Origin: Siphonodentalium dalli
Lineage: Eukaryota > Mollusca > Scaphopoda > Gadilida > Siphonodentaliidae
Reading direction: 5' to 3'
Length of the DNA stretch: 64,000 bases
Assembly: GCA_032622095.1 (NCBI GenBank)
Contig: CP136061.1
Coordinates: forward strand, 254,399,582-254,463,581
Shown here: positions 4,448-61,085 of the stretch, one piece after another
Numbering within the stretch: the first letter of the stretch is position 1
Layout: each line of letters starts with the position of its first letter
Translations under genes and position numbers: made by a program
Notes under the pieces: generated by a model
Told to the model about the DNA's origin: nothing
Databases searched by the model: none
Seen by the model: only the letters and a program-made list of their open reading frames with translations

Positions 4448-4449
4448 GA

Positions 4450-10820: not shown

Positions 10821-10821
10821 A

Positions 10822-10992
10822 ATTATACATCCGCCATTACAGCATATAAATAACTTCTTCTGACAGTAGTAATTCTTTTATGTAAATAGTTCCAGCCTCC
10901 CTAGATATAGGGCATTATAATGATTTGACCTGGCAGTCATCAGAATACAATCATGGACTGTAGGTGGCGACTAGAAGACTGGCTTCATATAG
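10822..10992. repeat. W dispersed repeat (copy B)
   Basis: Identical counterpart of 1470-1640 within the second copy of the duplication. Confidence 0.7.
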
Positions 10993-11413: not shown

Positions 11414-11813
11414 TTAACCCTTTACCCAACAGAAGGGCCCTGTGCCAATGCATTCTCTTATATATGCGAGTCGACCATAGGTCGCCTCGCATATATAAGA
11501 GAATGCATTGGCTTAACACATTACAAATTATAAAATTGTTAAAGAATGTAAAATAAAATGGTAAAAAGTGTTAAAAAAAGATTTTTTTTAGGCCAATGCA
11601 TTCTCTTATATATGCGAGGCGACCTATGGTCGACTCGCATATATAAGAGAATGCATTGGCACAGGGCATAACTGTAACTATCACAATGTGGTCAAGGAGC
11701 CGGTTCCAATGATATCCATATTTGTATGGTTCTATTGAGACAGACCGAAGATATTTTAGGCTGTTGAAGCTTTATTTGGCCGGTTTTGGCCGGTTTGTTG
11801 GGTAAAGGGTTAA
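11414..11813. mobile_element. P3 piggyBac-like MITE (copy B)
   Basis: Identical counterpart of 2062-2461 within the duplicated segment, with TTAA on both sides. Confidence 0.88.
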
Positions 11814-13596: not shown

Positions 13597-13799
13597 TACA
13601 ATAATGCTCTTAATTAATCGACTCCTTAAACACAGCAGAATTATGGGTAACTTTTCAATGGCTTGTTGCCATTCATAGGAAAGCTCTCGATGAGAGCTTT
13701 CCGATGAATGGCAACAAGCCATATTTCCAACTAAATCCTGAAAAGTTACCCATAATTCTGCTGTGTTTAAGGAGTCAATTAATTAGAGCATTTACTGTA
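13597..13799. mobile_element. FB-TA foldback MITE (copy B)
   Basis: Identical to 4245-4447 inside the second copy of the 9,352-bp-offset duplication. Confidence 0.85.
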
Positions 13800-13801
13800 G
13801 A

Positions 13802-14252
13802 TAAAGAGTCCTAATTTACGGTCTGTAAAATCAGCCCTGTTTTGTTTTTTGTTTTTTTAATTTTTTTGGGTTGAGTTTTTTTTTGGGTATGCTTAAGCAT
13901 GCTATAGCGAATTTAAAAACAAACTGGATAAAACCTTAGGGGCATGTTATAACTCAAAACTATCACCAAGTATTCATAGTCATAATTTTGATGCCCATGA
14001 AAAACGTAAGATTCCCTGACACTAAACCTACAAAATAAGTCTGGCACTGAAAGAGTTAAAGAATATAAGAAAAAATTAATTAAAATTGTAAAAAATTGTA
14101 AAAAATAATAACAAATGATGAAAAATTGTTAGGCCAATGCATTCTCTTATATATGCGAGGCGACCTATGGTCGACTCGCATATATAAGAGAATGCATTGG
14201 CACAGGGTATATGGGTTGATACAAAAATCGGACCTGGCACTGAAAGGGTTAA
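13802..14252. mobile_element. P1 piggyBac-like MITE, 5'-truncated (copy B)
   Basis: Counterpart of 4450-4900, ending at TTAA 14249-14252. Confidence 0.78.
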
Positions 14253-14509
14253 AATTAACCATCGCTTTGGTGTAAACAATGCGATCTCCCACACAAATTA
14301 AATCAGTTGATATTTCTTCAGGTTATCGCACTATCATGATCAAAATTCACAAAAAGAAACGAAAATGGCCGTAACTCCGTGCCAAAACTGTTAATCAAAC
14401 TCATTCAAGACATTGTTGAGCAAGTTTCATGTACCAAATATCAACAAAATCAGTTGATATTTGTTCAAGTTATCAACTATATATATATATCGCCAATCTG
14501 TAGATGCAT

Positions 14510-14788: not shown

Positions 14789-14970
14789 TATAGTAATGCC
14801 CTAAATAATCGACTCTTTAACCACAGAAGAATTATGCGTAACTTTTCAGGATTTAGTCGGAAATATGGTTTGTTGCCATTCATCGGAAAGCCATATTTCC
14901 GACTAATTCCTGAAAAGCTACCCATAATTCTGTTGTGGTTAAAGAGTCGATTATTTAGACCATTACTGTA
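14789..14970. mobile_element. FB-TA foldback MITE
   Basis: TA-flanked, starting tagtaatgccctaaataatc and ending ttatttagaccattactg. The centre is shortened: the left arm passes directly from gaaagccatatttccgac into the right arm. Confidence 0.85.
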
Positions 14971-17713: not shown

Positions 17714-18193
17714 ATATAAATAAACGATATATATAGGATAAGCTGCAACTTTATTTCATATCACATATATATATTTATGGCTAAATTTTCAGCAGACTAT
17801 ACTCCCCTTTGTGCACATTATGATATACAGTAATGCCCAAAGTAATCGACTCCTTAACCACAGCACAATCATGGGTAACTTTTCAGGATTTAGTCAGAAA
17901 TATGGCTTGTTGCCATTCATCGGAAAGCTCTCCCCGAAAAGTTACCCATAATTCTGCTGTGGTTAAGAAGTCGATTACTTTGGGCATTACTGTATATCAT
18001 AATGTGCACGAAGGGGAGTATGGTCTCCCGAAAATTTAGCCATAAATATATATATGTGATATGAAATAAAGTTGCAGCTTATCCTATATATATCGTTTAT
18101 TTATATGGCAACAAGCCATATTTCCGACTAAATCCTGAAAAGTTACCCATAATTCTGCTGTGGTTAAGAAGTCGATTAATTAGGGCATTACTG
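17714..18193. mobile_element. Composite palindrome: FB-TA with inverted flanks plus extra half FB-TA
   Basis: An FB-TA (17826-17994) sits at the centre of a larger inverted repeat. Its left flank (17714-17825: aataaacgatatatatagg, aagctgcaactttatttc) is mirrored at 17995-18106. A right-half FB-TA (18107-18193, ending gggcattactgca) follows directly. The order FB-TA, flank, half FB-TA recurs at 33618-34037. Confidence 0.85.
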
Positions 18194-20624: not shown

Positions 20625-20870
20625 TAATGAATATTCTAGAATGGTACATAGCACCATGAATAAACTGGAATAAAATATGAATAAAATAAACATGAACATT
20701 GTGGAATATTTGAACTTCAAAGTTTATTCTGTTTCCAATTGTTGAAAACTAGTAAAAAGTAAAAAATTCTTGTTTTTTCATGCTTATTCTAGTCTCATAC
20801 TTAGCTGAAAAATAAAATATTCCAGATTATTCAACGTTATTCTTCTCTAATTCATTATAAAGTCACAATA

Positions 20871-22113
20871 TTCTTGTTTATTCATGTTTAATATTCTTGT
20901 TTATTCATGTTTAATATTCTTGTTTATTCATGTTTAATATTCTTGTTTATTCATGTTTAATATTCTTGTTTATTCATGTTTAATATTCTTGTTTATTCAT
21001 GTTTAATATTCTTGTTTATTCATGTTTAATATTCTTGTTTATTCATGTTTAATATTCTTGTTTATTCATGTTTAATATTCTTGTTTATTCATGTTTAATA
21101 TTCTTGTTTATTCATGTTTAATATTCTTGTTTATTCATGTTTAATATTCTTGTTTATTCATGTTTAATATTCCTTGTTTATTCATGTTTAATATTCTTGT
21201 TTATTCATGTTTAATATTCTTGTTTATTCATGTTTAATATTCTTGTTTATTCATGTTTAATATTCTTGTTTATTCATGTTTAATATTCTCGTTTATTCAT
21301 GTTTAATATTCTCGTTTATTCATGTTTAATATTCTCGTTTATTCATGTTTAATATTCTCGTTTATTCATGTTTAATATTCTCGTTTATTCATGTTTAATA
21401 TTCTCGTTTATTCATGTTTAATATTCTTGTTTATTCATGTTTAATATTCTTGTTTATTCATGTTTAATATTCTTGTTTATTCATGTTTAATATTCTTGTT
21501 TATTCATGTTTAATATTCTTGTTTATTCATGTTTAATATTCTTGTTTATTCATGTTTAATATTCTTGTTTATTCATGTTTAATATTCTTGTTTATTCATG
21601 TTTAATATTCTTGTTTATTCATGTTTAATATTCTTGTTTATTCATGTTTAATATTCTTGTTTATTCATGTTTAATATTCTTGTTTATTCATGTTTAATAT
21701 TCTTGTTTATTCATGTTTAATATTCTTGTTTATTCATGTTTAATATTCTTGTTTATTCATGTTTAATATTCTTGTTTATTCATGTTTAATATTCTTGTTT
21801 ATTCATGTTTAATATTCTTGTTTATTCATGTTTAATATTCTTGTTTATTCATGTTTAATATTCTTGTTTATTCATGTTTAATATTCTTGTTTATTCATGT
21901 TTAATATTCTTGTTTATTCATGTTTAATATTCTTGTTTATTCATGTTTAATATTCTTGTTTATTCATGTTTAATATTCTTGTTTATTCATGTTTAATATT
22001 CTTGTTTATTCATGTTTAATATTCTTGTTTATTCATGTTTAATATTCTTGTTTATTCATGTTTAATATTCTTGTTTATTCATGTTTAATATTCTTGTTTA
22101 TTCATGTTTAATA
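20871..22113. repeat. 23-bp satellite, 54 units
   Basis: Unit ttcttgtttattcatgttta plus ata, head-to-tail with almost no divergence. One unit has an extra c (about 21171, 24 bp). Six consecutive units (about 21285-21420) carry ttctcg instead of ttcttg. Flanks contain diverged relatives (gaataaactggaataaaa on the left, aattcctgtttatttatgtt on the right). Unit count in an assembly may be unreliable for such an array. Confidence 0.97.
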
Positions 22114-23109: not shown

Positions 23110-24250
23110 AGGAAGATAATTTACGTATTTAAATTATGCTCAATGTTCACGTAAACCAAACACGAGTCTCATCATCACTCAAATCTCCCGAGTGAAACTC
23201 GCAGCAAACGATGATTACAGAAAACGTATTCATGTCTGAAATCATCGATGATTACCGCACCTCTCGTGGTGACTTGATGAAAGTCTGCTTAAATTGAGGC
23301 TCAAATTATGTGTTAATTAATAAAATGAGCTTCTTTATTGGGAAGCGTTAGGAAATGGAAGTGATCATTGAAGGTACCAACTGCTAACATCCCTCATCTC
23401 TACTGTGAAAACCAGGGGTGTTGCAAGGGGAGGGGTCAGGTTAATAGCCCCCCCCCACATTGCTGTAATTATTTCCCACAGGGTTAACATATAAATGGCC
23501 TGCAGTCCTGAGTATCCATGATTTGTGATAATTAAATCACCAGGATTGGCATTGGCGCAAAGCTTCTGTATGAAAAAAATCATATTGTCGGGCATGAAAT
23601 GTACCTTTAAATTTTGGATTTATAATTGAGAGTCAGAATTGCATGAATAAAATATTGACATTTTTAACCTCACACCGAAAAAATTCAAACTAGGAATTGC
23701 GTGCATTAAAATGTTCCAATATGTTTTTGTTGGCATCTGAAATTTTTAGGAATGATTGCAGGTATTTTGTATGTTTTAATATCAAAACTACTATTAACCA
23801 ATCAGGGCCCAGAATTTGTTTTAATTCTCTCCTGCATCTTGCCCCAAAATCTGTTGGATGGCGCTGCACCAATCAAATGACTTCACTGTAACCTTTAACA
23901 TAAACAGCAGAACAAACAGGGTGAATTTTGTAAATAGTACTGTGGGACTGTTTATCAGTGTTTATGTCCAGAACACAACATATGTATCACACTTATGATT
24001 GATTTGACATATCAACTCGTGACAGTCATGCCCCAAGAAGGAACCATAAAAGATTGCATCTACCAGGCAGACACTCCCTCGGGGAGGAGAAGCTGTAGAA
24101 CAAACAGGGTGAATTTTGTAACTGGTATTGTGGGACTGTTGATCAGTGTTTATGTCCCCAACACCACGATTAATTTGACATATCAACTCGTGAAAACAAA
24201 GGAAATCCATGACACTCATGGGCCAAGAAGGAACAATAAAAGATTGCATC
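23110..24250. other. No recognised gene; small inverted and direct duplications
   Basis: A direct repeat gaacaaacagggtgaattttg plus gtgggactgtt occurs at about 23911 and 24091, and catatcaactcgtga at about 24008 and 24178, suggesting local duplication. Frames of up to 95 codons overlap on both strands and are not convincing. Confidence 0.4.
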
Positions 24251-24467
24251 TACAGTAATGCCCCAAGTAATGAACTCCTTAACCACAGCAGAATTATGGG
24301 TAACTTTTCAGGATTTAGTCGGAAATATGGCTTGTTGCCATTCATCGGAAAGCTCTCAGTGAGAGCTTTCTGATGAATGGCAACAAGCCATATTTCCGAC
24401 TAAATCCTGAAAAGTTACCCATAATTCTTCTGTGGTTAAGGAGTCGATTACTTAGGGCATTACTGTA
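24251..24467. mobile_element. FB-TA foldback MITE, nearly complete
   Basis: TA 24251-24252 and 24466-24467. Full-length arms meet at agctctcagtgagagct. Identical flanking words (ctaccaggcagacactccct at 24059 and caggcagacact at 24468) lie near it. Confidence 0.9.
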
Positions 24468-33301: not shown

Positions 33302-33617
33302 AATGCGACCCATGCATTATGACATCACAGCACCCATCTATAGCTTTACCAATGAAAGATATGCCTGTATAATTATTATCAGATGCTTAGTTATGTGGAA
33401 ATCTGCGACTGTATAGAGATTCCAACACTCGCCCGAATGGCTACATCGCTTTGTTGATACTATGTTGTGATTGGTTGAGACTGACGTAATGCTTGTTGGT
33501 GGTCATAGGGATCCCCCCAATACTCCAGACTCAGTACAGTGTTATAGCTGTCGAGTCTGTGTTTAAACCAGAACTGCATGCAGCTTAACACATTCACAGC
33601 CGAATACGAGTAAAAGC

Positions 33618-33834
33618 TACAGTAATGCTCTAAATAATCGACTCCTTAACCACAGCAGAATTATGGGTAACTTTTCAGGATTTAGTCGGAAATATGGCTT
33701 GTTGCCATTCATCGGAAAGCTCTCCCCGAGAGCTTTCCGATGAATGGCAACAAGCCATATTTCCAACTAAATCCTGAAAAGTTACCCATGATTCTGCTGT
33801 GTTTAAGGAGTCGATTAATTAGGGCATTACTGTA
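33618..33834. mobile_element. FB-TA foldback MITE
   Basis: TA-flanked, full arms around agctctccccgagagct. It is the first part of the composite that continues to 34037. Confidence 0.9.
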
Positions 33835-34037
33835 TATCATATTGTGCACAAAGGGGAGTATAGTCTCATTAAAATTTAGCCATAAATATATATATATGTG
33901 ATATGAAATAAAGTTGCAGCTTATCCTATATATATCGTTTATTTATATGGCAACAAGCCATATTTCCGACTAAATCCTGAAAAGTCACCCATAATTCTGC
34001 TGTGGTTAAGGAGTCGATTACTTAGGGCATTATTGTA
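33835..34037. mobile_element. Flank plus half FB-TA, second copy of the 17.7-18.2 kb composite
   Basis: atcatattgtgcacaaaggg, tagccataaatatatatata, ataaagttgcagcttatcc match 17995-18106. Then a right-half FB-TA follows (33946-34037, ending gggcattattg TA). Finding the same order twice shows the composite moved or duplicated as one block. Confidence 0.82.
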
Positions 34038-34741
34038 TGCTCTAATTAATCAACCTCTTTAACAAGAATGTAGGACATTAATGACATCGGTTGTACCGCC
34101 ATTCAACCACGGTCAAGTGGTTGACATGCGGCATCCGTGGGTATTAAATCTTACTGCGGTACTGGTAATAATTTTTTCGACACCGTACTTCGCATTAATT
34201 TTTCACATGGCTGCCTTATACACAGTCCAGTTTTTCATGAGGGCCATACACTGCATTAACTATATACAAAATCAACATTCGACATTCGAAGTTGGTCACT
34301 GACCGACATTCACAATTGCATCATCAATGCAGCATCATGTCATGCCAGAAATATACACTCTCTGTGGTGGTGATAAAGCTGATTGCATCAATTCGGTCGA
34401 GTAACACAGTAATATCGGTGGTCAGCATCGTTAAGGAGGGTCGATTAATTACAGTGTAGCTGTATCTCATATTTTTTGCATGGAACTAACTGGATTCTTC
34501 CATCAGTTATATAAGTTATATAAAGTCATATATATTCCGAATTCCAAGGTGTTATCTACCTTGATGTCTCAAGCGATTTATAAACGATAATTATAGTGAA
34601 TTATGTCACTTTAACTAGCACGCTGTGTATTCATATGCGCTGACAAAATCCTGAAAAGTTACCCATAATTCTGCTGTGGTTAAGCAGTCGATTAATTAGG
34701 GCATTACTGTACTTGTCAATCAGTATTTAGTGTAGAAAGTG

Positions 34742-35015
34742 TTAACCCTTCCATGACTGGAGCTTCCTGAAATTTTGCGAAAACCCTGTGCCAATGAATT
34801 CTCTTATATATTGTATATTCGAGTCTCCCATAGGGAGCCTCGGATATATAAGAGAATACATTGGCCTAACAATATTTACCATAACCTAATTAAGCCAGTG
34901 CATTCTCTTACAAATGCGATTCTCCTTATGGGAGACATGCATAAATCGGTATATATAAAAAAAATTAATGTTGCACCTGCAGACTGCAGTGCTGCTCCCG
35001 TCATGAAAGAGTTAA
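34742..35015. mobile_element. P2 piggyBac-like MITE
   Basis: TTAA 34742-34745, cccttccatgactggagctt; cores contain tatattcgag/ctcggatata; right end gctcccgtcatgaaaga and TTAA 35012-35015, which also starts P4. Counterpart at 39543-39819. Confidence 0.85.
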
Positions 35016-35727
35016 AGGGGAACTGTACACTAAATCCGGCCATTTATGGGATCATCTCCTTTTATACTTACCAGAATATATGCAACAAATGAATGAATTT
35101 GAGCCATGGATGAGAGCAAAATACACTCATTTACAATTTGAGCAATACAAGCAACACGGTTATTATATTGAAAATGAATTTATGACTTCAGTCATAAATT
35201 CATTTTCATTATAATTACCATGTTGTAAGCAACGCTCATTCAGTAAATGAGTGTATTTTGCACTCATCCATGGCTCAAATTCATTCATTTGTTGCATATA
35301 TTCTGTTAAGTATATAGATAGAACGACACAAGTGTGTGAACTGGTTAACGTTATTGCACAAGTTTGTTGTGGCGCGATGGTAAAACGAGAACCGGAGGTT
35401 CGAGTTTTACCTCGCGGCACGACAAACGAGTGCAACAACGTTAATATGTTCACACAACTGTGTTCTTCTATGTTTATTGCACACTCTGAAGATTGCAGCT
35501 TGTAACATACTGACATTTAGGTCGATATTGTTGTATTTAATTGAACAAACATGTGCTTAATGTAGACTATATCCCATAATTTAGCGAAGACATTTCTGTT
35601 AAAGTTATTGAACGTTTCAATTCTTCTGTATTTTGCTGTATTTCGCACACAAAAGCCATTGGGTGTGCAATAAAAAAGGAGATGGTCCCATAAATGGCCG
35701 GATTTTGGTGTACGATACCCCTTTTAA
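35012..35727. mobile_element. P4: TTAA-flanked palindromic element with nested foldback
   Basis: TTAA then aggggaactgtacac and aaatccggccatttatggga; the right end is the inverse, ataaatggccggattttggt to cccc TTAA (35724-35727). The arms carry gcaacaaatgaatgaatttg and its inverse around the centre at about 35190-35200. A second foldback (about 35313-35668, centre gagaaccggaggttc) sits in the right arm and is absent from the 31.7-kb copy. Confidence 0.78.
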
Positions 35728-36124
35728 CCCTTTACTCAACAAACCGGCCAAAACCGGCCAAATAAAGCTTCAACAGCCTAAAATATCTTCGGTCTGTCTC
35801 AATAAAACCATACACATATGGATATCATTGGAACCGGCTCCTTGACCACATTGTGATAGTAACAGTTATGCCCTGTGCCAATGCATTCTCTTATATATGC
35901 GAGTCGACCATAGGTCGCCTCGCATATATAAGAGAATGCATTGGCCTAAAAAAAATCATTTTTTAACACTTTTTACCATTTTTTCTTACATTCTTTAACA
36001 ATTTTATAATTTTTAATGTGTTAAGCCAATGCATTCTCTTATATATGCAAGGCGACCTATGGTCGACTCGCATATATAAGAGAATGCATTGGCACAAGGG
36101 CCGTTCTATTGGGTAAAGGGTTAA
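35724..36124. mobile_element. P3 piggyBac-like MITE present only in copy A
   Basis: 393 bp between TTAA 35724-35727 and 36121-36124, inverted relative to 2062. Copy B reads cccctttaagtcagaaac at 40591, a single TTAA, so this is an insertion made after the local duplication. Confidence 0.93.
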
Positions 36125-36253
36125 GTCAGAAACAAAATTCAGGATGAAAATAAAATAAATATTAGACGACCTACGACTCGCATATATAAGAAAATGCACC
36201 AGCACGGGATCGTTAATGTTACACCGGTGCAGCTCCCGTCATGAAAGTGTTAA
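36125..36253. mobile_element. P2 right-end fragment
   Basis: actcgcatatataagaaaat, gttacaccggtgcagctccc, gtcatgaaagtg TTAA 36250-36253. Counterpart at 40599-40737. Confidence 0.75.
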
Positions 36254-36734
36254 ATCAACCAGAAAAACTTACAGAAGTGAGAAATATTCTCCAGAATAAT
36301 GAATAATGAAGAAGACTTGTGGTTCTTTTCACGATCAGATGTCATAACCAATCTGCCGATAAGCCCTCAGACATGTAAAGAGCAATACCCAGGGAGATGG
36401 ATCACTACGGCTGATGCAGTTCAATTCACCTAAACACCCATCACCCTTGACAGTGTGATTGAAGAGAACTTAACACGAAACATCGGGGGTATATCAATTA
36501 CATGTGCATAATGGCAGTTTCAACCAATCGTGACATTTGATATAGCACGCATGTTTTTGTCACCTGACATCCAATCCTTATAAGGTCGGCTACTGAATTC
36601 TTCCTATTGATGTCCATTAAGGGGTATCCATGCCTGAGCTATGTTTCATATTATATTAAGGGGTGGAGCCTGAGTTATGTCAGGAGGTGAAAAGTTTAGA
36701 TGGACAAACACAGAAAACTACTTTATTGTTAAGC

Positions 36735-36863
36735 TACAGTTAAATGCCCTAAATAATTGACTCCTTAACCACAGCAGAATTATGGGTAATTTTTCAGGAT
36801 TTAGTCGGAAATATGGCTTGTTGCCATTAATCGGAAAGATCTCTTATTTAGGGCATTACTGTA
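36735..36863. mobile_element. FB-TA foldback MITE with deleted arm
   Basis: The left arm is intact to ggcttgttgcc; after ggaaagatctc it jumps to ttatttagggcattactg TA. The paralogue at 41219-41437 keeps both arms, so the loss happened after duplication. Confidence 0.88.
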
Positions 36864-37085
36864 GTACACCACATGAAGGAATATGTGATATCTGTAGACC
36901 ATGCACATCAAGCATATTATATAACAACAAAAATGTCCAAAAGATGACTTAATTAAACATAGTTTTAGAAGGGATATTTTGGGAAGAGCGTCCTCAGCAA
37001 TTACCAATGTACACAAATTGAGTGGAAATGAATAACTGCCAATAAAGGTACATGATCTGAACTAGTAAAAGGCTCGAACAGCAAT

Positions 37086-37485
37086 TTAACTCTTTACCCA
37101 ACAAACCGGCCAAAACCGGCCAAATAAAGCTTCAACAGCCTAAAATATCTTGGGTCTGTCTCAATAGAACCATACAAATATGGATATCATTGGAACCGGC
37201 ACCTTGACCACATTGTGATGGTTACAGTTATGCCCTGTGCCAATGCATTCTCTTATATATGCGAGTCGACCATAGGTCGCCTCGCATATATAAGAGAATG
37301 CATTGGCCTAAAAAAAAAAAAATTTTAACACTTTTTACCCTTTTTTCTTATATTCTTTAACAATTATATAATTTTTAATGTGTTAAGCCAATGCATTCTC
37401 TTATATATGCGAGGCGACCTATGGTCGACTCGCATATATAAGAGAATGCATTGGCACAGGGCCGTTCTGTTGGGTAAAGGGTTAA
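37086..37485. mobile_element. P3 piggyBac-like MITE (shared by both duplicates)
   Basis: TTAA 37086-37089 and 37482-37485; same orientation as 35724. Paralogue at 41639-42038, so insertion predates the duplication. Confidence 0.9.
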
Positions 37486-37800
37486 TTGAGTTCAATACTG
37501 CTTCAAGAATCTCAACATTATGTTTGGTGTGTGCTGCAAAATTGTGAACATCCATATTGCAAGAATTGATATAAACCATTGGACTGAGGTGAGTTTAAGC
37601 CTCACTTTTAGGTCATATGTCCCCAGCCAAATTCCCAAATTACCAGCCATCTCCAACACTGTGGCCTATAAATACAGTTGATTGCTCCCAGCTTGAGTGG
37701 ACTGACCTCCTTGATGTAACAGTTCATGGTAATGGCTTCTCCCAACGTTTTAGATCAAAATTATCTGACTGAAATGGACAGCAATTTCAAGCCAGTGTAG

Positions 37801-37890
37801 GGGGGGGGGGGGGGGGAGAAGATTTGAAATTTCCAACAGTTGGAGAGCTCGATGTACCAGTGTATTGGGGGGGGAGCTCGATATACCAGT
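37801..37890. repeat. Poly-G run and two-unit minisatellite
   Basis: A run of about 17 g, then gagctcgatgtaccagtg plus tattgggggggg, then a second diverged unit. The paralogue has four units. Confidence 0.85.
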
Positions 37891-38197
37891 GCAAATGATA
37901 TTTCTCAGACTGAGAAATCTTAATTTGGTTTAAAGTGGGAGGGGGTAACGATGTAGTAGGAAATTCCAAACTGGACACGTCCCTTCAACAGACACCCTCT
38001 ATACATGTATGTAATGTAATACTGAATGTAATCCAGATATATATACTTAAATATCAATCAAATTAACTATAAAAGTCCCCGTAATGACACTCCATTGCTA
38101 ATGACCAAACAGTGTATCACCAGACATCTGCATATAAGTATACCCTGCCGTGGCCGAGATAAAGTCTGTAGACACCGTTATGACATTCTGGGAGTAA

Positions 38198-38643
38198 CCC
38201 TTCAAATAGTGTGTCTGTCATTTGCAGAATGAGGTCCCCAGAGGGTGAATTTAGTGACGCTATCCTACACAGCGGGTTAACACCACTAAATTCATGCTCT
38301 TGGGACCTCATGCTACTAGGACCTCATCTTCTGAGAAGTGTGTATAGTCTCAAATTAACATTGTTTCTAGTTACTTTTTCCTTTCTGTTCAGTTTCTTTA
38401 TGCCCTAATTTGCAAAAGATAAAATGCATAATCAAGGTGACCAATGGGTGAACATCACTAACTTCAACTAGGGAACTTCAATCTGATGCTTACATGTAGG
38501 TCTAGCAGTTTAAAATACTTAACAGAATGCGGTCCCCAGAGGGTGAACTTGGTGATGCTAGCCTACCATGCGGGATAGAGTCACAAAATTCACCCTCTGG
38601 GGACCTCATTCTGCAAATGACAGACACACTATTACAGGGCTTG
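38198..38643. mobile_element. Q element, full length
   Basis: Left end cccttcaaatagtgtgtctg, palindromic arm pair, spacer with aattaacattgtttctagtt and ctaatttgcaaaagataaaa, second arm pair (38525-38610), right end gacacactattacagggctt g. No clear target duplication. Paralogue 42784-43233. Confidence 0.8.
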
Positions 38644-38754
38644 CCAGACAGCCTGTTATAGTCGAGATACCATTGTTATTTATAGTAATTACGAGATGCA
38701 TGTCGGTCATAAATGATGGCTCTCTTAGATTTATTAATATCCTTCTGAGTTGAC

Positions 38755-39121
38755 ATCTTTTAAAGTGATGTGAAATACTCCGACAGGGTGATCAAATAGA
38801 AATGGAGAATAATCTTGTTCAAAGTCGTAATCTTTACAAATAGTATATCCAAATTTACAACACACACCATCATTATTATATATGAATATTAAATGCAGTG
38901 ACTCTCGATGGCGAAATCGTTTTCGCTAGTTTATCGCCGATAGATGCGTCCCGAATAGAGTAGTAAATATTTACAATTGAGCGTAGTTCTGATGATGTTT
39001 TCTATGGAGTGGTAAGGTTGATTTGCTTCAAATTTTCGGCGATGTTAGTAGAATGTTACATTCCTCCAGTTGTCATAGCGCCTGAATACTAAGTTATCAG
39101 TTTCACGCACCGGAACAAGTA
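38755..39121. repeat. S dispersed repeat
   Basis: Same block as 17325-17713, ending at acaagtacat next to the duplication breakpoint. Confidence 0.75.
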
Positions 39122-39308
39122 CATTCTCTATGTACAAGTGATTATTCTCTATGTACATTAGAATGAAACACAAGCAGACGACAGATACACATATATATAT
39201 TAAATTAATTGAGTGCTTGCAGTCCTATTCATCAGTGAGAAATGTTCAGATAATAAGTTCAACAAATGGCCTGTGAACTTATTATCTGAAAACATTTCCA
39301 TACGGAGC

Positions 39309-39512
39309 TGCAGTAATGCCCTAATTAATCGACTGCTTAACCACAGCAGAATTATGGGTAACTTTTCAGGATTTAGTTAGAAATATGGCTTGTTGCCATT
39401 CATCGGAAAGCTTTCTGATGAATGGCAACAAGCCATATTTCTGACAAAATCCTGAAAAGTTACCCATAATTCTGCTGTGGTTAAGCAGTCGATTAATTAG
39501 GGCATTACTGTA
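39309..39512. mobile_element. FB-TA foldback MITE with symmetric variants
   Basis: Starts tgcagtaatgccctaattaa and ends gggcattactg TA. Both arms carry the rare gactgcttaacc/ggttaagcagtc and taattaatc/gattaatta forms. The left TA has become tg. Confidence 0.88.
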
Positions 39513-39542
39513 CTTGTCAATCAGTATTTAGTGTAGAAAGTG

Positions 39543-39819
39543 TTAACCCTTCCATGACTGGAGCTTCCTGAAATTTTGCGAAAACCCTGTGCCAATGAAT
39601 TCTCTTATATATTGTATATTCGAGTCTCCCATAGGGAGCCTCGGATATATAAGAGAATATATTGGCCTAACAATATTTACCATAACCTTGTAATTAAGCC
39701 AGTGCATTCTCTTACAAATGCGATTCTCCTTATGGGAGACTTGCATAAATCGGTATATATAAACAAATTTAATGTTGCGCCTGCAGACTGTAGTGCTGCT
39801 CCCGTCATGAAAGAGTTAA
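39543..39819. mobile_element. P2 piggyBac-like MITE (paralogue of 34742)
   Basis: TTAA 39543-39546 and 39816-39819; same core variants as copy A plus small differences. Confidence 0.85.
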
Positions 39820-40598
39820 AGGGGAACTGCACACTAAATCCGGCCATTTATGGGACCATCTCCTTTTATACTTACCAGAATATATGCAACAAATGAATGA
39901 ATTTGAGCCATGGATGAGAGCAAAATACACTCATTTACAATTTGAGCAATACAAGCAACACGGTTATTATAATGAAAATGAATTTATGACTCCAGCCATA
40001 AATTCATTTTCATTATAATTACCATGTTGTAAGCATGCAACGCTCATAGAGTAAATGAGTGTATTTTGCACTCATCCATGGCTCAAATTCATTCATTTGT
40101 TGCATATATTCTGTTAAGTATATAGATAGAACGACACAAGTGTGTGAACTGGTTAACTTTATTGCACGAGTTTGTTGTGACGTGATGGTAAAACGAGAAC
40201 CGGAGGTTCGAGTTTTACCTCGCGGCACGACAAACGAGTGCAACAACGTTAATATGTTCACACAACTGTGTTCTTCTATGTTTATTGCACACTCTGAAGA
40301 TTGCAGCTTGTAACATACTAACATTTAGGTCGATATTGTTGTATTTAATTGAAAAAACGTGTGCTTAATGTAGACTATATCCCATAATTTAGCGAAGACA
40401 TTTCTGTTAAGTTGACGTCGCCAGAGACGTTGTTGACGTAATATGTTTGTATTGTTCAAGAACAATACACATTTTTTTATTGAACGTTTCAATTCTTCTG
40501 TATTTTGCTGTATTTCGCACACATAAGCCATTGGGTGTGCAATAAAAAAGGAGATGGTCCCATAAATGGCCGGATTTTGGTGTACGGTACCCCTTTAA
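39816..40598. mobile_element. P4 element (paralogue of 35012)
   Basis: TTAA 39816-39819 and 40595-40598. It includes the nested foldback and a 60-bp stretch (gttgacgtcgccagagacgt to gaacaatacacat) missing in copy A. Its right TTAA is the unoccupied site of the P3 in copy A. Confidence 0.8.
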
Positions 40599-40737
40599 GT
40601 CAGAAACAAAATTCAGGATGAAAATAAAATAAATATTAGACGACCTACTAGTACCTACGACTCGCATATATAAGAAAATGCACCAGCACGGGATCGTTAA
40701 TGTTACACCGGTGCAGCTCCCGTCATGAAAGTGTTAA
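40599..40737. mobile_element. P2 right-end fragment (paralogue)
   Basis: Same as 36125-36253 with a small insertion (actagtacct), ending TTAA 40734-40737. Confidence 0.75.
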
Positions 40738-41218
40738 ATCAACCAGAAAAACTTACAGAAGTGAGAAATATTCTCCAGAATAATGAATAATGAAGAAGAC
40801 TTGTGGTTCTTTCCACGATCAGATGTCATAACCAATCTGCCGATAAGCCCTCAGACATGTAAAGAGCAATACCCAGGGAGATGGATCACTACGGCTGATG
40901 CAGTTCAATTCACCTAAACACCCATCACCCTTGACAGTGTGATTGAAGAGAACTTAACACCAAACATCGGGGGTATATCAATTACATGTGCATAATGGCA
41001 GTTTCAACCAATCGTGACATTTGATATAGCACGCATGTTTTTGTCACCTGACATCCCATCCTTATAAGGTCGGCTACTGAATTCTTCATATTGATGTCCA
41101 TTAAGGGGTATCCATGCCTGAGCTATGTTTCATATTATATTAAGGGGTGGAGCCTGAGTTATGTCAGGAGGTGAAAAGTTTAGATGGACAAACACAGAAA
41201 ACTACTTTATTGTTAAGC

Positions 41219-41437
41219 TACAGTTAAATGCCATAAATAATTGACTCCTTAACCACAGCAGAATTATGGGTAATTTTTCAGGATTTAGTCGGAAATATGG
41301 CTTGTTGCCATTCATCGGAAAGCTCTCACTGAGAGCTTTCCGACGAATGGCAACAAGCCATATTTCCGACTAAATCCTGAAAAATTACCCATAATTCTGC
41401 TGTGGTTCAGGAGTCAATTATTTAGACCATTACTGTA
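41219..41437. mobile_element. FB-TA foldback MITE, complete
   Basis: TA 41219-41220 and 41436-41437. Symmetric variants aattgactcc/ggagtcaatt and ggtaatttttcagg/cctgaaaaattacc occur in both arms. Confidence 0.9.
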
Positions 41438-41638
41438 GTACATCACATGAAGGAATATGTGCTATCAAGCATATTATATAACAATAAAAAATTTCAAAAG
41501 ATGACTTTAACATAGTTTTAGAAGGGATATTTTGGGAAGAGCGTCCTCAGCAAGTACCAATGTACACAAATTGAGTGGAAATGAATAACTGCCAATAAAG
41601 GTACATGATCTGGACTAGTAAAAGGCTCGAACGGCAAT

Positions 41639-42038
41639 TTAACCCTTTACCCAACAAACCGGCCAAAACCGGCCAAATAAAGCTTCAACAGCCTAAAATA
41701 TCTTCGGTCTGTCTCAATAGAACCATACAAATATGGATATCATTGGAACCGGCTCCTTGACCACATTGTGATAGTTACAGTTATGCCCTGTGCCAATGCA
41801 TTCTCTTATATATGCGAGTCGACCATAGGTCGCCTCGCATATATAAGAGAATGCATTGGCCTAAAAAAAAAAAAAATTTAACACTTTTTACCATTTTTTC
41901 TTACATTCTTTAACAATTTTATAATTTTTAATGTGTTAAGCCAATGCATTCTCTTATATATGCGAGGCGACCTATGGTCGACTCGCATATATAAGAGAAT
42001 GCATTGGCACAGGGCCCTTCTGCTGGGTAAAGGGTTAA
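41639..42038. mobile_element. P3 piggyBac-like MITE (paralogue of 37086)
   Basis: TTAA 41639-41642 and 42035-42038, two hairpin cores, ccggccaaaaccggcc motif near the left end. Confidence 0.9.
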
Positions 42039-42321
42039 TTGAGTTCAATACTGCTTCAAGAATCTCAACATTATGTTTGGTGTGCGCTGCAAAATTGTGA
42101 ACATCCATATTGCAATAATTGATATAAACCTTTAGACTGAGGTGAGTTTTAGGTCATATGTCCCCAGCCAAATTCCCAAATGTCCCGCTATCTCCAACAC
42201 TGTGGCCAATAAATACAGTTGATTGCTCCCAGCTTGAGTGGACTGACCTCCTTGATGTAACAGTTCATGGTAATGGCTTCTCACAACGTTTTAGATCAAA
42301 ATTATCTGACTGAAATGGACA

Positions 42322-42480
42322 GGGGGGGGGGGGGGGGGGGGTAGATTTGAAATTTTCAACAGTTGGAGAGCTCGATGTACCAGTGTATTGGGGGGGAAGA
42401 GCTCGATGTACCAGTGTATTGGGGGGGGAGAGCTCGATGTACCAGTGTATTGGGGGGGGAGAGCTCGATGTACCAGTGCA
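42322..42480. repeat. Poly-G run and four-unit minisatellite
   Basis: A run of about 20 g, then four units of gagctcgatgtaccagtg plus tattgggggggaga of about 36 bp. The block of open frames here is due to the repeat. Confidence 0.9.
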
Positions 42481-42783
42481 AATGATATTTCTCAGACTGA
42501 GAAATCTTAATTTGGTTCAAAGTGGGAGGGGGTGACGATGTAGTAGGAAATTCCAAGCTGGACACGTCCCTTCAACAGACACCCTCTATACATGTATGTA
42601 ATGTAAATACTGAATGTAATCCAGATATATATACTTAAATATCAATCAAATTAACTATAAAAGTCCCCGTAATGACACTCCATTGCTAATGACCAAACAG
42701 TGTATCACCAGACATCTGCATATAAGTACCCTGCCGTGGCCGAGATAAAGTCTGTAGACACTGTTATGACATTCTGGGAGTAA

Positions 42784-43233
42784 CCCTTCAAATAGTGTGT
42801 CTGTCATTTGCATAATGAGGTCCCCAGAGGGTGAATTTAGTGACGCTATCCTACACAGCAAGTTAACATCACTAAATTCACTCTCTGGGAACCTCATGCT
42901 ACTAGGACCTCATCTTCTGAGAAGTGTGTATAGTCTCAAATTAACATTGTTTCTAGTTACTTTTTCCTTTCTGTTCAGTTTCTATATCCCCTAATTTGCA
43001 AAAGATAAAATGCATAATCGAGGTGACCAATGGATGAACATCACTAACTTCAACTAGGGAAGTTCAATCTGATGCTTACATGTAGGTCTAGCAGTTTAAA
43101 AGACTTAACAGAATGCGGTCCCCAGAGGGTGAACTTGGTGATGCTATATAGCCTACCATGTGGGATAGAGTCACAAAATTCACCCTCTGGGGACCTCATT
43201 CTGCAAATGACAGACACACTATTTCAGGGCTTG
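42784..43233. mobile_element. Q element, full length (paralogue of 38198)
   Basis: Same structure as 38198-38643, with minor differences (tagcctaccatgtgg in the second arm). Confidence 0.8.
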
Positions 43234-43344
43234 CCAGACAGCCTGTTATAGTCGAGATACCATTGTTATTTATAGTAATTACGAGATGCATGTCTGTCAT
43301 AAATGATGGCTTTCTTAGATTTATTAATATCCTTCTGAGTTGAC

Positions 43345-43735
43345 ATCTTTTAAAGTGATGTGAAACACTCCGAAAGGGTGATCAAATAGAAATGGAGAAT
43401 AATCTTGTTCAAAGTCGTAATCTTTACAAACAGTATATCCAAATTTACAACACACACCATCATTATTATATATGAATATTAAATGCAGTGACTCTCAATG
43501 GCGAAATCGTTTTCGCTAGTTTATCGCCGATAGATGCGTCCCGAATAGAGTAGTAAATATTTACAATTGAGCGTAGTTCTGATGATGTTTTCTATGGAGT
43601 GGTACGGTCGATTTGCTTCAAATTTTCGGCGATGTTAGTAGAATGTTACATTCATCCAGTTGTCATAGCGCCTGAATACTAAGTTATCAGTTTCACGCAC
43701 TGGAACGCACCCGAACAAGTACATAATATGTCTTT
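43345..43735. repeat. S dispersed repeat
   Basis: Third S copy, with a small duplication gcactggaacgcacccgaac near its end. Confidence 0.75.
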
Positions 43736-43757
43736 AAAGATTATTCTGAGGTGGTGT

Positions 43758-43866
43758 ACAGTAATGTCGTAAATAACCGACTCCTTAACCACAGCAGACG
43801 TATGGGTAACTTTTCAGGATTTAGTCGGAAATATGGCATGTTGACATTCATCGAAAACTCTCAGTG
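43758..43866. mobile_element. FB-TA left half
   Basis: tacagtaatgtcgtaaataa through ttgacattcatcgaaaactc, then breaks off. Confidence 0.8.
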
Positions 43867-43949
43867 TCCTGCCAGTAGCAAGTCATATAAATCATATACA
43901 ATTATTTTTATTATGAATATTAAGTAAATTTACAATATATCCTGCCCTT

Positions 43950-44132
43950 CAGTAATGTCCTAAATAATCGACTCCTTAACCACAGCAGAATTATGGGTAA
44001 TTTTTCAGGATTTAGTCGGAAATGTGAGAGCTTTCCGATGAATGGCAACAAGCCATATTTAGGACTAAATCCTGAAAAATTACCCATAATTCTGCTGTGG
44101 TTAAGGAGTCGATTATTTAGGGCATTACTGTA
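43950..44132. mobile_element. FB-TA foldback MITE, internally deleted
   Basis: Left arm to gatttagtcggaaatg, then gagagctttccgatgaat and the full right arm to gggcattactg TA. Both arms have ggtaatttttcagg/cctgaaaaattacc. Confidence 0.87.
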
Positions 44133-44261
44133 CCTTGAAACATGTCCTAATCAAGCTATGATACAGTGTGTGTGTCTGTCATTCTTACCAACCCATGGCT
44201 TTAGGTTGAACCAATAACTAATTCACTTAAACACTTCAACGTTAGAATTCAAACTGATATA

Positions 44262-44478
44262 TACACTAATTCCCTAATTAATCGACTGCTTAACCACAGC
44301 AGAATTATGGGTAACTTTTCAGGATTTAGTCGGAAATATAGCTTGTTGCCATTCATCGGAAAGCTCTCGGGGAGAGCTTTCCGATGAATGGCAACAAGCC
44401 ATATTTCCGACTAAATCCTGAAAAGTTACGCATAATTCTGCTGTGGTTAAGCAGTCGATTAATTAGGGCATTACTGTA
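44262..44478. mobile_element. FB-TA foldback MITE, complete
   Basis: TA 44262-44263 and 44477-44478. It has the gactgcttaacc/ggttaagcagtc and taattaatc/gattaatta symmetric forms, centre agctctcggggagagct. Confidence 0.9.
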
Positions 44479-44481
44479 GGT

Positions 44482-45356
44482 GCACATGGGCCTGTAACAT
44501 GCTCTGCTGCCCGCCCCCCTTTGCGCTGCACCTATACGCCAAAACTAAATATGCACCTGCTTTACGTTAATAGTATCATAAATAGGATAAGGGGAACAAT
44601 AGAAATCCACGGTTTTACCATCGCTCGGAAATCAGGAATATCTTGTCCATTTATCCAAGCAATGGTATCGATGTCACCACGGACGCGTCGATGAAGGATT
44701 CCTCTTTCAATCAATACCACAAGCGTCTTCCATTTCAAATTATATCCATATCATTTAATAAAATTTTGACCACTGAATATTGTCTCCAGAGAGCGTAAAA
44801 ATCAAGATTGAAACGGCTCAAGAAAAATGGCGGATAGATTCTCCGAAATTCTTAAATATTTCTTTCTTTATTTCTCTCCTGTTCGTGACCTCATCTACAT
44901 AAATATTAAACAATACTGATGCCCATGCTTATTCTAGCCAATCAGTACACTCAGATCTTCATATTCCATATTCGGGTCATATGTACATGTAGATGGGGTC
45001 ACAATGAGAGAGTGAAAAATAGGGGATTTCTATTGTTCCCCTTGTCCTATACAGTAATTCTCTAAATAATCAACTCCTTAACCATAGCAGAATTATGGGT
45101 AACTTTTCAGGATTTAGTCGGAAATGTGGCTTGTGCGGAAAGCTCTCACTGAGAGCTTTCCGATGAATGGCAACAACCCATATTTCCGACTAAATCCTGA
45201 AAAGTTACCCATAATTCTGCTGTGGTTAAGGAGTCGATTATTTAGGGCATTACTGTATATGATACTATTAACGTAAAGCAGGCGCGCATATATTTTGGGC
45301 ATATAGTGGCAGTGCAAAGGGGGTGGGCAGCGGAGCGCGTTACAGGCCCCTGTGAT
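44482..45356. mobile_element. Inverted-repeat element with FB-TA in its right arm
   Basis: Left arm 44482-44619 starts tgcacatgggcctgtaacat and includes tttacgttaatagtatcat, then ggataaggggaacaatagaa. The right arm is the inverse, from ggatttctattgttcccc (about 45025) to gcgttacaggcccctgtg (about 45351), interrupted by the FB-TA at 45050-45257. A spacer of about 400 bp lies between the arms. No coding match; target duplication unclear. Confidence 0.75.
45050..45257. mobile_element. FB-TA foldback MITE
   Basis: TA 45050-45051 and 45256-45257, inserted in the sequence tcctaTAtgatac whose intact counterpart is in the opposite arm at about 44575-44590. Confidence 0.9.
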
Positions 45357-52593: not shown

Positions 52594-52781
52594 GGATGGC
52601 CTAGTGAAGATATCTACTTCGATAAACAGTAGCCCTGCTGGTCAACAGTCTGGTCAGTGGTTCCAGACAGTCTGATTAAACAAGGTAACATCATAAATCA
52701 GAGTAATAAATCAGGGGTCAAGGTTTGCTTTCAACATGTGTACATATCAGATTGGCTGAGAGTGTACACCACAGTGCAATA

Positions 52782-52986
52782 TACAGTAATGCTCTAATTA
52801 ATCGACTCCTTAACCACAGTACAATTATGGGTAACTTTTCAGGATTTATACGGAAATATGGGAGATCTAATTTCTCGGGGAGAGCTTTCCGATGAATGGC
52901 AACAAGCCATATTTCCGACTAAATCCTGAAAAGTTACCCATAATTCTGCTGTGGTTAAGGAGTCGATTACTTAGGGCATTACTGTA
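52782..52986. mobile_element. FB-TA foldback MITE
   Basis: TA 52782-52783 and 52985-52986; left arm diverged near the centre (gggagatctaatttctcggg). Confidence 0.87.
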
Positions 52987-54208
52987 TAAAGTTTGCTTTT
53001 AACCATTGTATTTATCGGAATAGCCACCATGTTAAAAAAATGGTGAAAAGGGTGGGAGCAATCGAACCAATTGAACACAGTATAATAGAGGAGTCTCTTG
53101 CCAAAAATTTTGCCAAATTAATTTATTTTTTGCCAAATTAAAAAAATATTTGCCAAATTTAATTGCTGTTTATAATTGGGGAAATTATCGTGTTTATATA
53201 TTGTTATATACCATCAAAACTAACCACATATACACAGGTAAAATGATCACTGGAAAAGCAAGTTAGTATTATTAATAAATATCAAAGTATAGCAATAAAT
53301 ATCTAAGCGACACCTGCCTGCATGGACACTACGTTTAATTTTACTACACAGTCATCAAGCATACATATTATTTTGCCTTGTATTACTGCTGATATCAACT
53401 AGCCATAAATTAATCCGTCGTTCACATTCTGCTGATTAACCTATTGTTTTGTACTCGCTGGTAATATAACACTGACATCATAAATATGTGCTATGTCATG
53501 TTGCCATTAATATGCATTGTTACAATGACTACATGCGTCCATAATCCAAATGGACAAAGGGAGGATTAACTGTCAAAACATATTAATGATTACCTTTTGC
53601 TGTGTTTTTATTGAGATCATGTTATAAAGTATTTACAACAGCCTCAATAAAAAAATTACAGAACATTGCTTTTTTCCGACTCACATTTTAACCGCGGTCG
53701 ATCAGCTGTTTGAAGAAAGTTTGAGAAAGATGGGATTACCGTTTTGTGAAAACTAAAGAAAGATTACATATAACTGTCGACATAACACTGCTAACTGCGC
53801 TATACAGGTAAATTGATAGATTTCTTGTTTTGGTTTCCCATTGTATTGTCTGTAAGTCGACACACGTAACGAATAACCCACATTCAATGATGTTTTGCGA
53901 CTAGATAGCTCACATCCCATAATTAAAAACTCACTTGCCAAAATTTTTGACAAATGAAAATATTTTTTGCCATTGGCAAATGTGTGTAATGCTGAACATT
54001 TATATGCGAAATGAACATGTGAGTCACAAGTTACAAGTACATGTTGCTCAACCTCGCTATTATGTTCATCAATAAGCCAATTACACAATTTTCTGTTTTT
54101 AAAATTGACTTGGCATTTAATTTGGCAACGACTATTTATTACTTTATTTTTTTAAAACAGTACAGCATGCACTCATGACCAAACCACACAGCCTCTAACA
54201 AACATTCT

Positions 54209-55775: not shown

Positions 55776-56155
55776 TTTCTATACTAAATGGATTCTCCTA
55801 TTCAGTTATAAAAGTATACATTGGAATAGTCTATTATTCATTTATAGGGTTGTTCAAGGAAATAAATGCTGACAGCAGACAGAAAAACAGATAATACCAT
55901 GGCCGTTTGTTGAACTTAATAGCTGAACACTGCCCAAGGGTAAAAGATTAATTTAGTACAGTAATGCCCTAAGTAATCGACTCCTTAACCACAGCAGAAT
56001 TATGGGTAACTTTTCAGGATTTAGTCGGAAATATGGCTTGTTGCCATTCATCGGAAAGCACTCCCCGAGAGCTTTCCGATGAATGGCAACAAGCTTCCGA
56101 CTAAATCCTGAAAAGTTACCCATAATTCTGCTGTTGTTAAGGAGTCAATTACTTA

Positions 56156-56787
56156 GTGTCGGCACACACGATCCCGATTGTGCCCGGTTAAATCCAGCTG
56201 CCGATAAATCGGGCCGGGTCAGCGCACACGAGTCGGATTTTCACTCCGGTCATATGCATGCTATGGTCACTGTAGTATATAGCCAACTGGTGTGGTCAGA
56301 CTATCTAGCGAGTTACTATAGCTAGTCATGGTGAATTACATTAATATGTACATTTGTATTTCTAAAGACTGGTAATATTTATTAATAATAAACAAAATAA
56401 ATATATTAGTAATATATTGAGATCACAAGCAATAGTTGTAAATTGGCGTAATAGACCTTTCCACAGCTGCCGCCCTCTTGTTGCGATTATTAAACAGGCG
56501 CTCATTTTCTGCCCACAGGTCTACCAGCCGTTGTTCCTTGTCGATCGATCAGAATTCTTGATTTAATTTTGAATAGCGGTCGCCGCGAACTATTCCGACA
56601 TTTTGAATGAGGTTTTGGTCATGTGACGGCCATGTAACAAACAAAACACGCGCGTTGCCATCGTCACGAGCCGGATTTTCCTAATGAAAAACCACTCCAA
56701 AGTTAGGCGCACGCAGTCCCGATTGTCCACGATTTATCCGGCAGCCGGATTAATCGGGGACAATTGTGGGATCGTGTGCGCCGACAC
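56156..56787 (-). mobile_element. Hb1: PIF/Harbinger-like element, 632 bp
   Basis: Termini GTGTCGGCACACACGATCCC and, inverted, GTGTCGGCGCACACGATCCC; TTA at 56153-56155 and 56788-56790. The inverted repeats are about 80 bp, with gataaatcg and ggcagc motifs. A 3-bp TTA duplication and an ORF1-type fragment support PIF/Harbinger. It lacks the DDE nuclease. Confidence 0.82.
56423..56600 (-). pseudogene. MADF/Myb-like ORF1 fragment in Hb1
   Basis: The minus strand reads SIDKEQRLVDLWAENERLFN followed by NRNKRAAAVERSI, then tga at 56423-56425. The L-DLW...NRNKRAAA pattern resembles MADF/Myb-SANT-like DNA-binding domains, which PIF/Harbinger elements encode beside their nuclease. Only the first part of the domain is present. 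A stop (tga, 56549-56551) precedes SID where related proteins usually have tryptophan, and no intact start is in frame. Family recognition is from motif pattern only. Confidence 0.6.
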
Positions 56788-59349: not shown

Positions 59350-61085
59350 TACAGTACCCTTGCAAAAAGAAATCCGAGCTTTTTTAAAGAACTTTGGGAA
59401 TCCTAGGAATTCATAGGATTTCCAAGGTTTGAACCAAGCTTTTTGAATGTAAAAATTTACTCTTCAACAAAGTTTGGAAATCCTTGGTTGGAACCTTGGT
59501 AAAGCTTAGTAAAGCTAGGATCTAAGTTTTACCAAGCTTTACCAAGGTTGTCACATAAAGTGAAACCTTGGAAAAGCTTGGAAATCCTTGACTCAGTGTT
59601 GACCAACCTTGGTAAAGCTAAGTAAAGCTTGGATCTAATATTTACTAAGCTTTTCCAAGCTTTACCAAGGTTCTTACATGAAGTTTGAAAAGCTTGGAAA
59701 TCCTTGGAAAAGCTTGGTAAAGCTTAGTTGTAGGTCACATGACTGGGTCAAATGACTATGCAGACGTCACTGTTGTCTGTGGCAGCATTTTGAATTAACT
59801 GTTGCACTGAGTTTAAATCCATGTTTTATCACAACAATCTTCAGGTAAGTTATTGCTTGTGTGTCCCTAATGTTTTCTATTTGACTCATAGAATCTGGTT
59901 GTAGTGATATTTTTATTTATGATATTATGTTAACAATTATTTTACCATTTCCAAGAATAACCTTCAGGACCACTATCTACCTTTTCATTCCAAAGGCTTA
60001 TCTCTATCATTATATATTCTCAGCTAATTTATCTAATTTAACTGTTTTATCACACTCCAAATACCTCAGATCCATAAACATATACCTGTGAATATTATTC
60101 TATACATTTTTACAGGGTATAAGGTACCATTTATCTCAATCTAAATAGAATAACAAAATTCTGTCTGAAAAGTGAACTTTGAATGAATAATATCATGAAT
60201 GATTATATGGCATGGTTCATGACTGTTGTAAATTTCAAGAGATTGTATCATTAATGATGATAATATTGTCAAAGTTGAAGCCTTTGCAGTGTCATTAGAG
60301 ATTTTCACCTTTTAAATACAAAACAATTGCAACCTTGGTAAAGCTTGGTAAAGCTGGGTTGCAACCTTGGTAAAGCTTGGAAAAGCTGAGCTGGAACCTT
60401 GGTAAAGCTTGGAAAAGCTAGGCTGGAACCTTGGTAAAGCTTGGAAAAGCTAGACTGGAACCTTGGTACAGCTTGGTAAAGCTAGGTAAAGCTAGGCTGG
60501 AACCTTGGTAAAGCTTGGTAAAGCTAGGCTGGAACCTTGGTAAAGCTTGGTAAAGCTAGGTAAAGCTAGGCTGGAACCTTGGTAAAGCTAGGTAAAGCTA
60601 GATTGGAAACCTTGGTAAAGCTTGGTAAAGTTATGATTAAGATTTTGCAAAGCTTGGAAATCCTTGGATAAGCTCGGTTTAATTTGCTGAGGTATTCCAA
60701 GGTTTTCCGAACTTGAAACGGGCCAATACCGCCCCAAGGATTTCCCAGCTTTTCCAAGGTCTCTAATCCTAGGATATCCTAGGAATTCCAAGGAATTTTC
60801 CTAACTTTTCCAAGCTTTTATTCCTAGGATATCCTAGGAATTCCTTGGATATCCTAGGACATTTTGGTAAGGGTAATGCCCTAAGTAATCGACTCCTTAA
60901 ACACAGCAGAATTATGGGTAACTTTTCAGGATTTAGTCGGAAATATGGCTTGTTGCCATTCATCGGAAAGCTCTCCCCGAGAGCTTTCTGATGAATGGCA
61001 ACAAGCCATATTTCCGGCTAAATCCTGAAAAGTTACCCATAATTCCGCTGTGTTTGAGGAGTCGATTACTTAGGGCATTACTGTA
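59350..61085. mobile_element. FB-TA foldback MITE split near its tip
   Basis: TA 59350-59351 then cag; the rest (atgccctaagtaatcgactc onward) resumes at 60876 and runs to gggcattactg TA 61084-61085. Both arms carry the cttaaacacag/ctgtgttt variant. Confidence 0.88.
59357..60873. mobile_element. TA-flanked 1,517-bp element with AGCTT-rich subterminal arrays
   Basis: Ends CCCTTGCAAAAAGAAATCC and, inverted, CCCTTACCAAAATGTCC; TA 59355-59356 and 60874-60875. Left (59390-59735) and right (60325-60860) parts consist of degenerate ccttggtaaagcttgg words on both strands; the middle (59740-60320) is unique and non-coding. TA duplication suggests Tc1/mariner-type mobilisation; superfamily uncertain. 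Confidence 0.82.

Follow-up and report, generated by a model that had tools for sequence, protein, structure and literature searches.

The window analysed here, 64,000 nucleotides of Siphonodentalium dalli contig CP136061.1 (positions 254,399,582 to 254,463,581), contains about 20 whole or partial copies of a hairpin-shaped miniature inverted-repeat transposable element (MITE), in which the same substitution can stand in both arms of one copy. With a probability of roughly two in three, we attribute this symmetry to an account in three layers. Source elements with matched arms have given rise to large subfamilies, whose marking variants (e.g. at sites 16, 26, 32, 35 and 53) stand in both arms of many copies; after insertion the arms mutate independently, with one-armed changes as the outcome, CpG decay included; and rarely a stretch of one arm would be transferred to the opposite arm of that element, leaving private symmetric haplotypes of several sites. 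A first-pass annotation of the window had read the symmetry as a general tendency of substitutions, brought about by one arm templating the other.

The comparison of arms started from 210 stretches, 169 of which had two pairable arms; removal of 30 duplicates by flank similarity left 139 copies, although a few of those removed (scores 31–42) may merely share a neighbouring repeat. Unless stated otherwise, the figures below refer to a main set of 66 copies: 12 from the window, 35 found by an intact centre (drawn from the first 50 occurrences on contig C1) and 19 found by a mid-arm pattern (from 40 places hand-picked among 100 listed arms, most of one tandem block being omitted). The strictest set consists of 47 copies, those for which no arm pattern served as the search query. 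Masking removed the search stretch of each copy (the inner 12 sites of both arms in L031–L080; sites 28–52 of one arm in L131–L170). Random expectations were obtained from 1,000 shuffles in which arms were re-paired between copies or, for the test of rare alleles, mates were shuffled within arm classes.

With masking, the two arms of a copy diverge at 5.90% of sites (326/5,528), against 8.73% for random mates and 8.01% in the lowest of the shuffles; the unmasked values are 5.33% and 7.74%. Arms within a copy are thus more alike than arms of different copies, as the first-pass annotation had expected, but the gap lies at 22 sites with common, subfamily-marking variants, where masked divergence is 13.2% within copies and 25.4% between random mates. 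The dependence on variant frequency is seen directly in the counts of symmetric and one-armed copies: for non-CpG variants these are 3:66 for variants present in one copy, 6:88 in two copies, 8:78 in three to five copies, 15:13 in 6–10 copies and 79:49 in more than ten copies, and for CpG transitions 5:43. Rare variants are one-armed, and common variants are more often two-armed than not. With 154 one-armed and nine symmetric occurrences of non-CpG variants found in one or two copies, a general tendency to symmetry does not hold. Along the arm, 194 of the 203 symmetric copy counts of common variants fall at sites 2–53, and rare one-armed variants occur all along it (unmasked). Two earlier results were withdrawn: a first table of 57 hand-deduplicated copies (singletons 4 symmetric, 87 one-armed), into which query-selected copies had been mixed, and T at site 9 as an inherited one-armed variant (19 one-armed, 1 symmetric in the 139 copies), which stemmed mainly from copies selected for likeness to a query with this T and is present in 1 of 125 arms of the main set.

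Independent mutation after insertion is observed in copies that were duplicated together with their flanks. In 21 such pairs the one-armed differences number 27 and the symmetric ones zero; after masking of the search stretches, 17 one-armed and 2 discordant differences, again with 0 symmetric ones, were counted in 20 pairs. Of the 22 pairs listed, one was unusable; the figure of 27 omits two discordant sites, and three of the 21 pairs have copies in common. One-armed decay of this kind would also produce the lack of symmetry that the first-pass annotation ascribed to older truncated copies. A window example is the copy at 41219–41437 (loop ACT, T53 in both arms) and its segmental paralogue at 36735–36863, which has lost most of its right arm: at sites 10–12, where both arms allow a judgement, the differences are one-armed, and the rest lie where the paralogue lacks its right arm.

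Inherited symmetry is seen in forms from which the first-pass annotation had argued. All seven string pairs that it cited were found in both arms within the window: GACTGCTTAACC at 39331/39479 and 44284/44445, GGTAATTTTTCAGG at 41269/41376 and 43996/44071, CCCAAAGTAATC at 17836/17973, and AAACACAG at 4276/4409 and 60899/61048. The two forms followed through the genome are large subfamilies. G26 (GACTGC) occurs in 1,960 arms and A32 (AAACACAG) in 3,375, and among the first 100 listed arms of each, 19 and 21 copies, respectively, carry the variant in both arms. In the plain mid-arm listing 50 of 100 listed arms have a pattern-matching mate, so that symmetry is probable for most AAACACAG copies whose mate can be read. 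These listings were counted by script; the arms of one G26 pair and of one A32 pair are separated by more than 300 bp and may belong to different elements. T53 (GGTAATTTTTCAGG) is symmetric in 23 and one-armed in 11 of the 139 copies. The great majority of rare substitutions are one-armed, and the two cited forms traced genome-wide are expanded subfamilies; both outcomes that the first-pass annotation had itself named as contrary to its model have thus largely come about.

Two of its examples have histories of their own. The two sides of the copy at 17826–17997 (with A13/G16, CCCAAAGTAATC, in each arm and a truncated right arm) belong to a 174-nt inverted repeat, 95% complementary, that spans 17714–18106 and extends about 110 bp beyond the element end into non-element flank on each side. 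Both sides share states against a related unit at 33.9 kb, for instance an AT run that is 2 nt shorter. From its sequence the structure looks like an inverted duplication of flank plus arm, and an insertion of two like units is a possible alternative. The related unit lies in 33617–34038, where a full copy with arms unlike at sites 11 and 16 precedes a unit of this flank and a right arm on its own, together a one-sided relative of the structure at 17.7–18.2 kb. The copy at 4245–4448 (A32 in both arms, inner deletion in the left arm) belongs to a block that is present twice, 9,352 bases apart, and has its duplicate at 13597–13800; the repeat, about 5 kb long and near-exact, joins window positions 1–5000 and 9353–14352 and includes both copies.

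Evidence that one arm has occasionally been copied onto the other comes from alleles present in fewer than 3% of arms. With masking, the 139 copies hold 386 one-armed, 13 symmetric and 2 discordant occurrences of such alleles, and permutation gave a mean of 2.1 symmetric ones with a maximum of 8 in 1,000; the main set holds 149, 6 and 1, with 1.75 symmetric ones expected and at most 5 in 1,000. Four rare symmetric cases were traced genome-wide. Copy L069 carries in both arms a haplotype with changes from site 49 to site 92. A 23-base pattern from it, with either base allowed at one CpG, occurs at exactly two places in the genome, namely its own two arms, and a 25-base pattern from its left arm is unique, its own right arm having since changed. 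The two arms of L069 are 95% identical, and the nearest other scored copy reaches 91%. The triple A88/G92/A96 (sites 88, 92 and 96) of copy L129 is found genome-wide only in that copy and in a duplicate with the same flanks on another contig, which speaks against an assembly artefact at this locus. The outer arms of L129 differ freely between the sides, which favours a short patch on the loop side. Both copies thus have what homogenisation by template switching would leave, several bases changed alike in the two arms of a single copy but not in its relatives. The copying would proceed, at a low rate, by short-patch template switching of a DNA polymerase at the hairpin.

A smaller case concerns TG at sites 38–39, which occurs in 71 arms genome-wide and, counted by reading, stands in both arms in 3 of 68 copies, including two that are duplicates of each other; about 0.04 independent double hits would be expected by a rough estimate. 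The change from CCACAGCAG to CCACAGTGG makes a local palindrome (CCAC-A-GTGG) complete and may be a small example of template switching. The CAG to TGG change at these sites (e.g. in L063 and L091–L110) occurs on several backgrounds and looks recurrent.

Several results weigh against this part of our account. At the 85 sites without common variants, masked divergence is 3.96% within copies and 4.20% between random mates, a difference that 58 of 1,000 shuffles equalled and that is not significant. The same comparison in all 139 copies, including the query-selected ones, gave 3.59% and 3.89%, equalled by 1 of 1,000 shuffles. In the unmasked main set the deficit at rare sites had looked significant (2/1,000) because unmasked search stretches work against symmetric variants there; masking dissolved this significance, left the overall pattern unchanged and lowers the odds of arm copying slightly. 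In the strictest set, rare alleles are one-armed in 111, symmetric in 3 and discordant in 0 cases, with 1.6 symmetric ones expected and the observed number equalled by 96 of 1,000 shuffles. One of the four traced cases, A32, proved to be a large subfamily. Private symmetric cases with several sites number two, L069 and L129, and L069 could be the lone survivor of a subfamily near extinction. Site 38 has no clear excess of concordant doubles (5 concordant, 3 discordant in 92 copies among the first 100 listed arms, counted by reading), which argues against frequent templating. The sample, finally, comes mostly from the start of one contig.

Taken together, these points lend some weight to pure expansion of master copies, by which all symmetry would descend from sources with matched arms, without templating, and rare symmetric variants would be tiny subfamilies or double hits. 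The location of the symmetry at common marking sites, with the remainder near chance, agrees with this, as do the size of the A32 and G26 subfamilies, the lack of symmetric changes among the 27 that followed duplication, and the rare symmetric excess that loses significance in the strictest set. We nevertheless regard pure expansion as unlikely. The haplotypes of L069 and L129 are each restricted to one element lineage, rare symmetric alleles exceed the permuted number in the 139 copies with discordant doubles at only two, and expansion leaves unexplained how masters gained two-armed changes at several sites.

In our three-layer account the symmetric subfamilies themselves may have been made by copying events in source lineages. 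Since spreading variants are mostly two-armed, some two-armed step is needed. That they are so, although changes in place are not, would follow if copying is commoner in lineages that move, if matched arms move better, or both. Arm matching could further be tied to the mobile phase: resting arms would drift nearly uncorrected, as the duplicate pairs suggest, and copying would take place mainly during gap repair in transposition or in a hairpin intermediate, acting intermittently as a filter for new subfamilies. We put this forward tentatively and hold it to be doubtful as it stands.

A stronger form of templating is the regeneration model, which the first-pass annotation had suggested beside mismatch repair in a cruciform or hairpin: whenever an element transposes, a single arm would serve to rebuild its partner, and new copies would be perfectly matched. 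The two-armed state of spreading variants, set beside the one-armed state of changes in place, agrees with it, and arms are indeed perfectly matched in copies such as L063, L027 and L030. However, other copies have unlike arms. Eight marking sites could be read in both arms of 53 copies: the arm haplotypes are identical in 20, differ at one site in 15 and, by common alleles, at two or more in 14; a looser count of 17 hybrids, which took in private alleles, was set aside for the stricter figure. For 117 of 132 arms another copy holds an arm closer than the mate, the mate being strictly closest for 7, with 8 ties. Such hybrids may have arisen by exchange of arms between copies. The young variant T40 on G26 arms tells a similar story. 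It occurs in 139 arms genome-wide, and reading of the first 100 of these showed at least 8 copies with it in both arms. Of 26 copies with two arms that were read after deduplication, 14 have a G26 mate lacking T40, 6 carry T40 on both sides and 6 have a mate of another type. The 14 loci at which a G26+T40 arm faces a G26-only arm have unrelated flanks, although some may be fresh mutations, as T40 is also present in 5 of 222 non-G26 arms, and hybrids could arise after insertion. Together with the 14 unlike-armed copies, these loci disfavour whole-arm regeneration at every transposition, which we consider very improbable. Of the templating idea, an occasional event is supported, by L069 and L129 and, more weakly, by the excess of rare symmetric alleles; its regular occurrence at transposition is not.

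Least probable of all, judged from sequence alone, is selection by the transposase, under which only elements with matched arms would move well and asymmetric variants would fail to spread: the concentration of common symmetric variants in the outer arm half fits it, but matching hits in both arms would be required beforehand, and the private inner symmetric changes at sites 88–96 are left unexplained.

The element on which these comparisons rest has arms of 107 nt, a length of about 217 bp, a loop usually of 3 nt, the ends TACAGTAATG...CATTACTGTA and flanking TA. It is short, is bounded by terminal inverted repeats (TIRs) and has a high copy number, as is characteristic of MITEs, and from its length and hairpin form we assume that it lacks coding capacity. 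TA is present at both ends in 49 of the 66 copies; in the remaining 17 the local alignment stopped short of an end, which would hide non-TA ends too. In the host genome, which comprises 2.23 Gb in 9 contigs, a search for the exact centre, with the loop left free, gave 13,194 hits, and 65,220 arms match a mid-arm pattern of 25 bases that has one free site; reversed-pattern controls had 0 matches. At two arms per copy, the latter number corresponds to about 33,000 copies, or more if arms missing the pattern are counted. On contig C1 (734000–923000) arms stand at regular spacings of about 11–15 kb, which suggests large tandem duplications. Single-stranded, the copy at 44262–44478 folds with −116.6 kcal/mol, whereas its shuffled versions average −19.4, and a hairpin of this stability is a natural substrate for template switching. 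The Foldback (FB) elements of Drosophila have long TIRs built of internal tandem repeats and a 9-bp target duplication; no tandem array scoring at least 150 was found within the window copies, and the internal tandem repeats of FB TIRs are thus missing there.

The remaining window copies vary in completeness. G26 is present in both arms of the copies at 39309–39512, which has lost its loop, and at 44262–44478, which has the loop GGG and otherwise one-armed changes. T53 is shared by both arms of 43950–44133, the left arm of which is shortened; nearby, 43756–43862 is a diverged left arm on the forward strand without a right arm of its own. A32 recurs in both arms of 60870–61085 (loop CCC). Both arms are full at 24250–24467 (loop AGT). 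The left arm is shortened at 45040–45260, the right arm has an internal deletion at 55956–56156 (loop CCC), and 14789–14970 has an inner deletion. The copy at 52779–52988 is of hybrid type, its arms being unlike at sites 11 and 16, and 6274–6466 has outer ends that are not the usual ones. Blocks at 34640–39400 and 39441–44200 are repeated at a spacing of about 4.5–4.8 kb with 96–100% identity, and MITE copies present in one block are missing or incomplete in its counterpart. The window also holds a 23-bp tandem repeat (20867–22113; 54 copies, 99% matches) and a second inverted-repeat family with arms 90–99% complementary (2085–2315, 11437–11667, 35871–36099 and 41785–42015), which may offer an independent test of arm symmetry.

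A near-perfect hairpin in about 33,000 copies, each with two comparable arms, amounts to a natural experiment on the rate at which inverted-repeat arms are corrected. Our analysis separates inherited symmetry, which mimics gene conversion, from true arm-to-arm copying, and warns that arm identity within copies above that between copies is in itself no proof of templating. We found no paper on matched substitutions in both arms of MITE copies, a weak negative, as subscription journals and preprints lay mostly outside the search.

Among known elements, Stowaway is a TA-site MITE of the Tc1/mariner group, and Angel of zebrafish is a stem-loop MITE for which amplification in hairpin form was proposed; to Angel the likeness would lie in the stem-loop and the hairpin-amplification model. 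Galileo belongs to the P superfamily, and its full copies code for transposase, whereas the hairpin MITE is about 217 bp long and nearly all stem. With TA-site MITEs of the Tc1/mariner group, in which TA is duplicated (PMC7325037), the element shares TA at its ends, short length and high copy number. It differs from them in consisting almost entirely of stem. Long terminal inverted repeats are shared with Galileo, for which ectopic recombination, and template switching while gaps are repaired, have been proposed as sources of structural variation (PMC4168063), and with Tetris, in which the TIR repeats of two of the three complete elements group together, a pattern read as possible homogenisation (PMC4079207). 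Template switching between the arms of inverted repeats is an established process. In yeast genes one arm templates the other and homogenises the two (PMC8604942), and RNA hairpins have patterns consistent with template switching (PMC8794818). The likeness to these quasipalindrome systems lies in the use of one arm as template, by which several bases come to be changed alike on the two sides of a hairpin; the difference is that they concern short repeats in genes and RNA genes, whereas here the 107-nt arms of a high-copy MITE would be corrected by the same means at a low rate.

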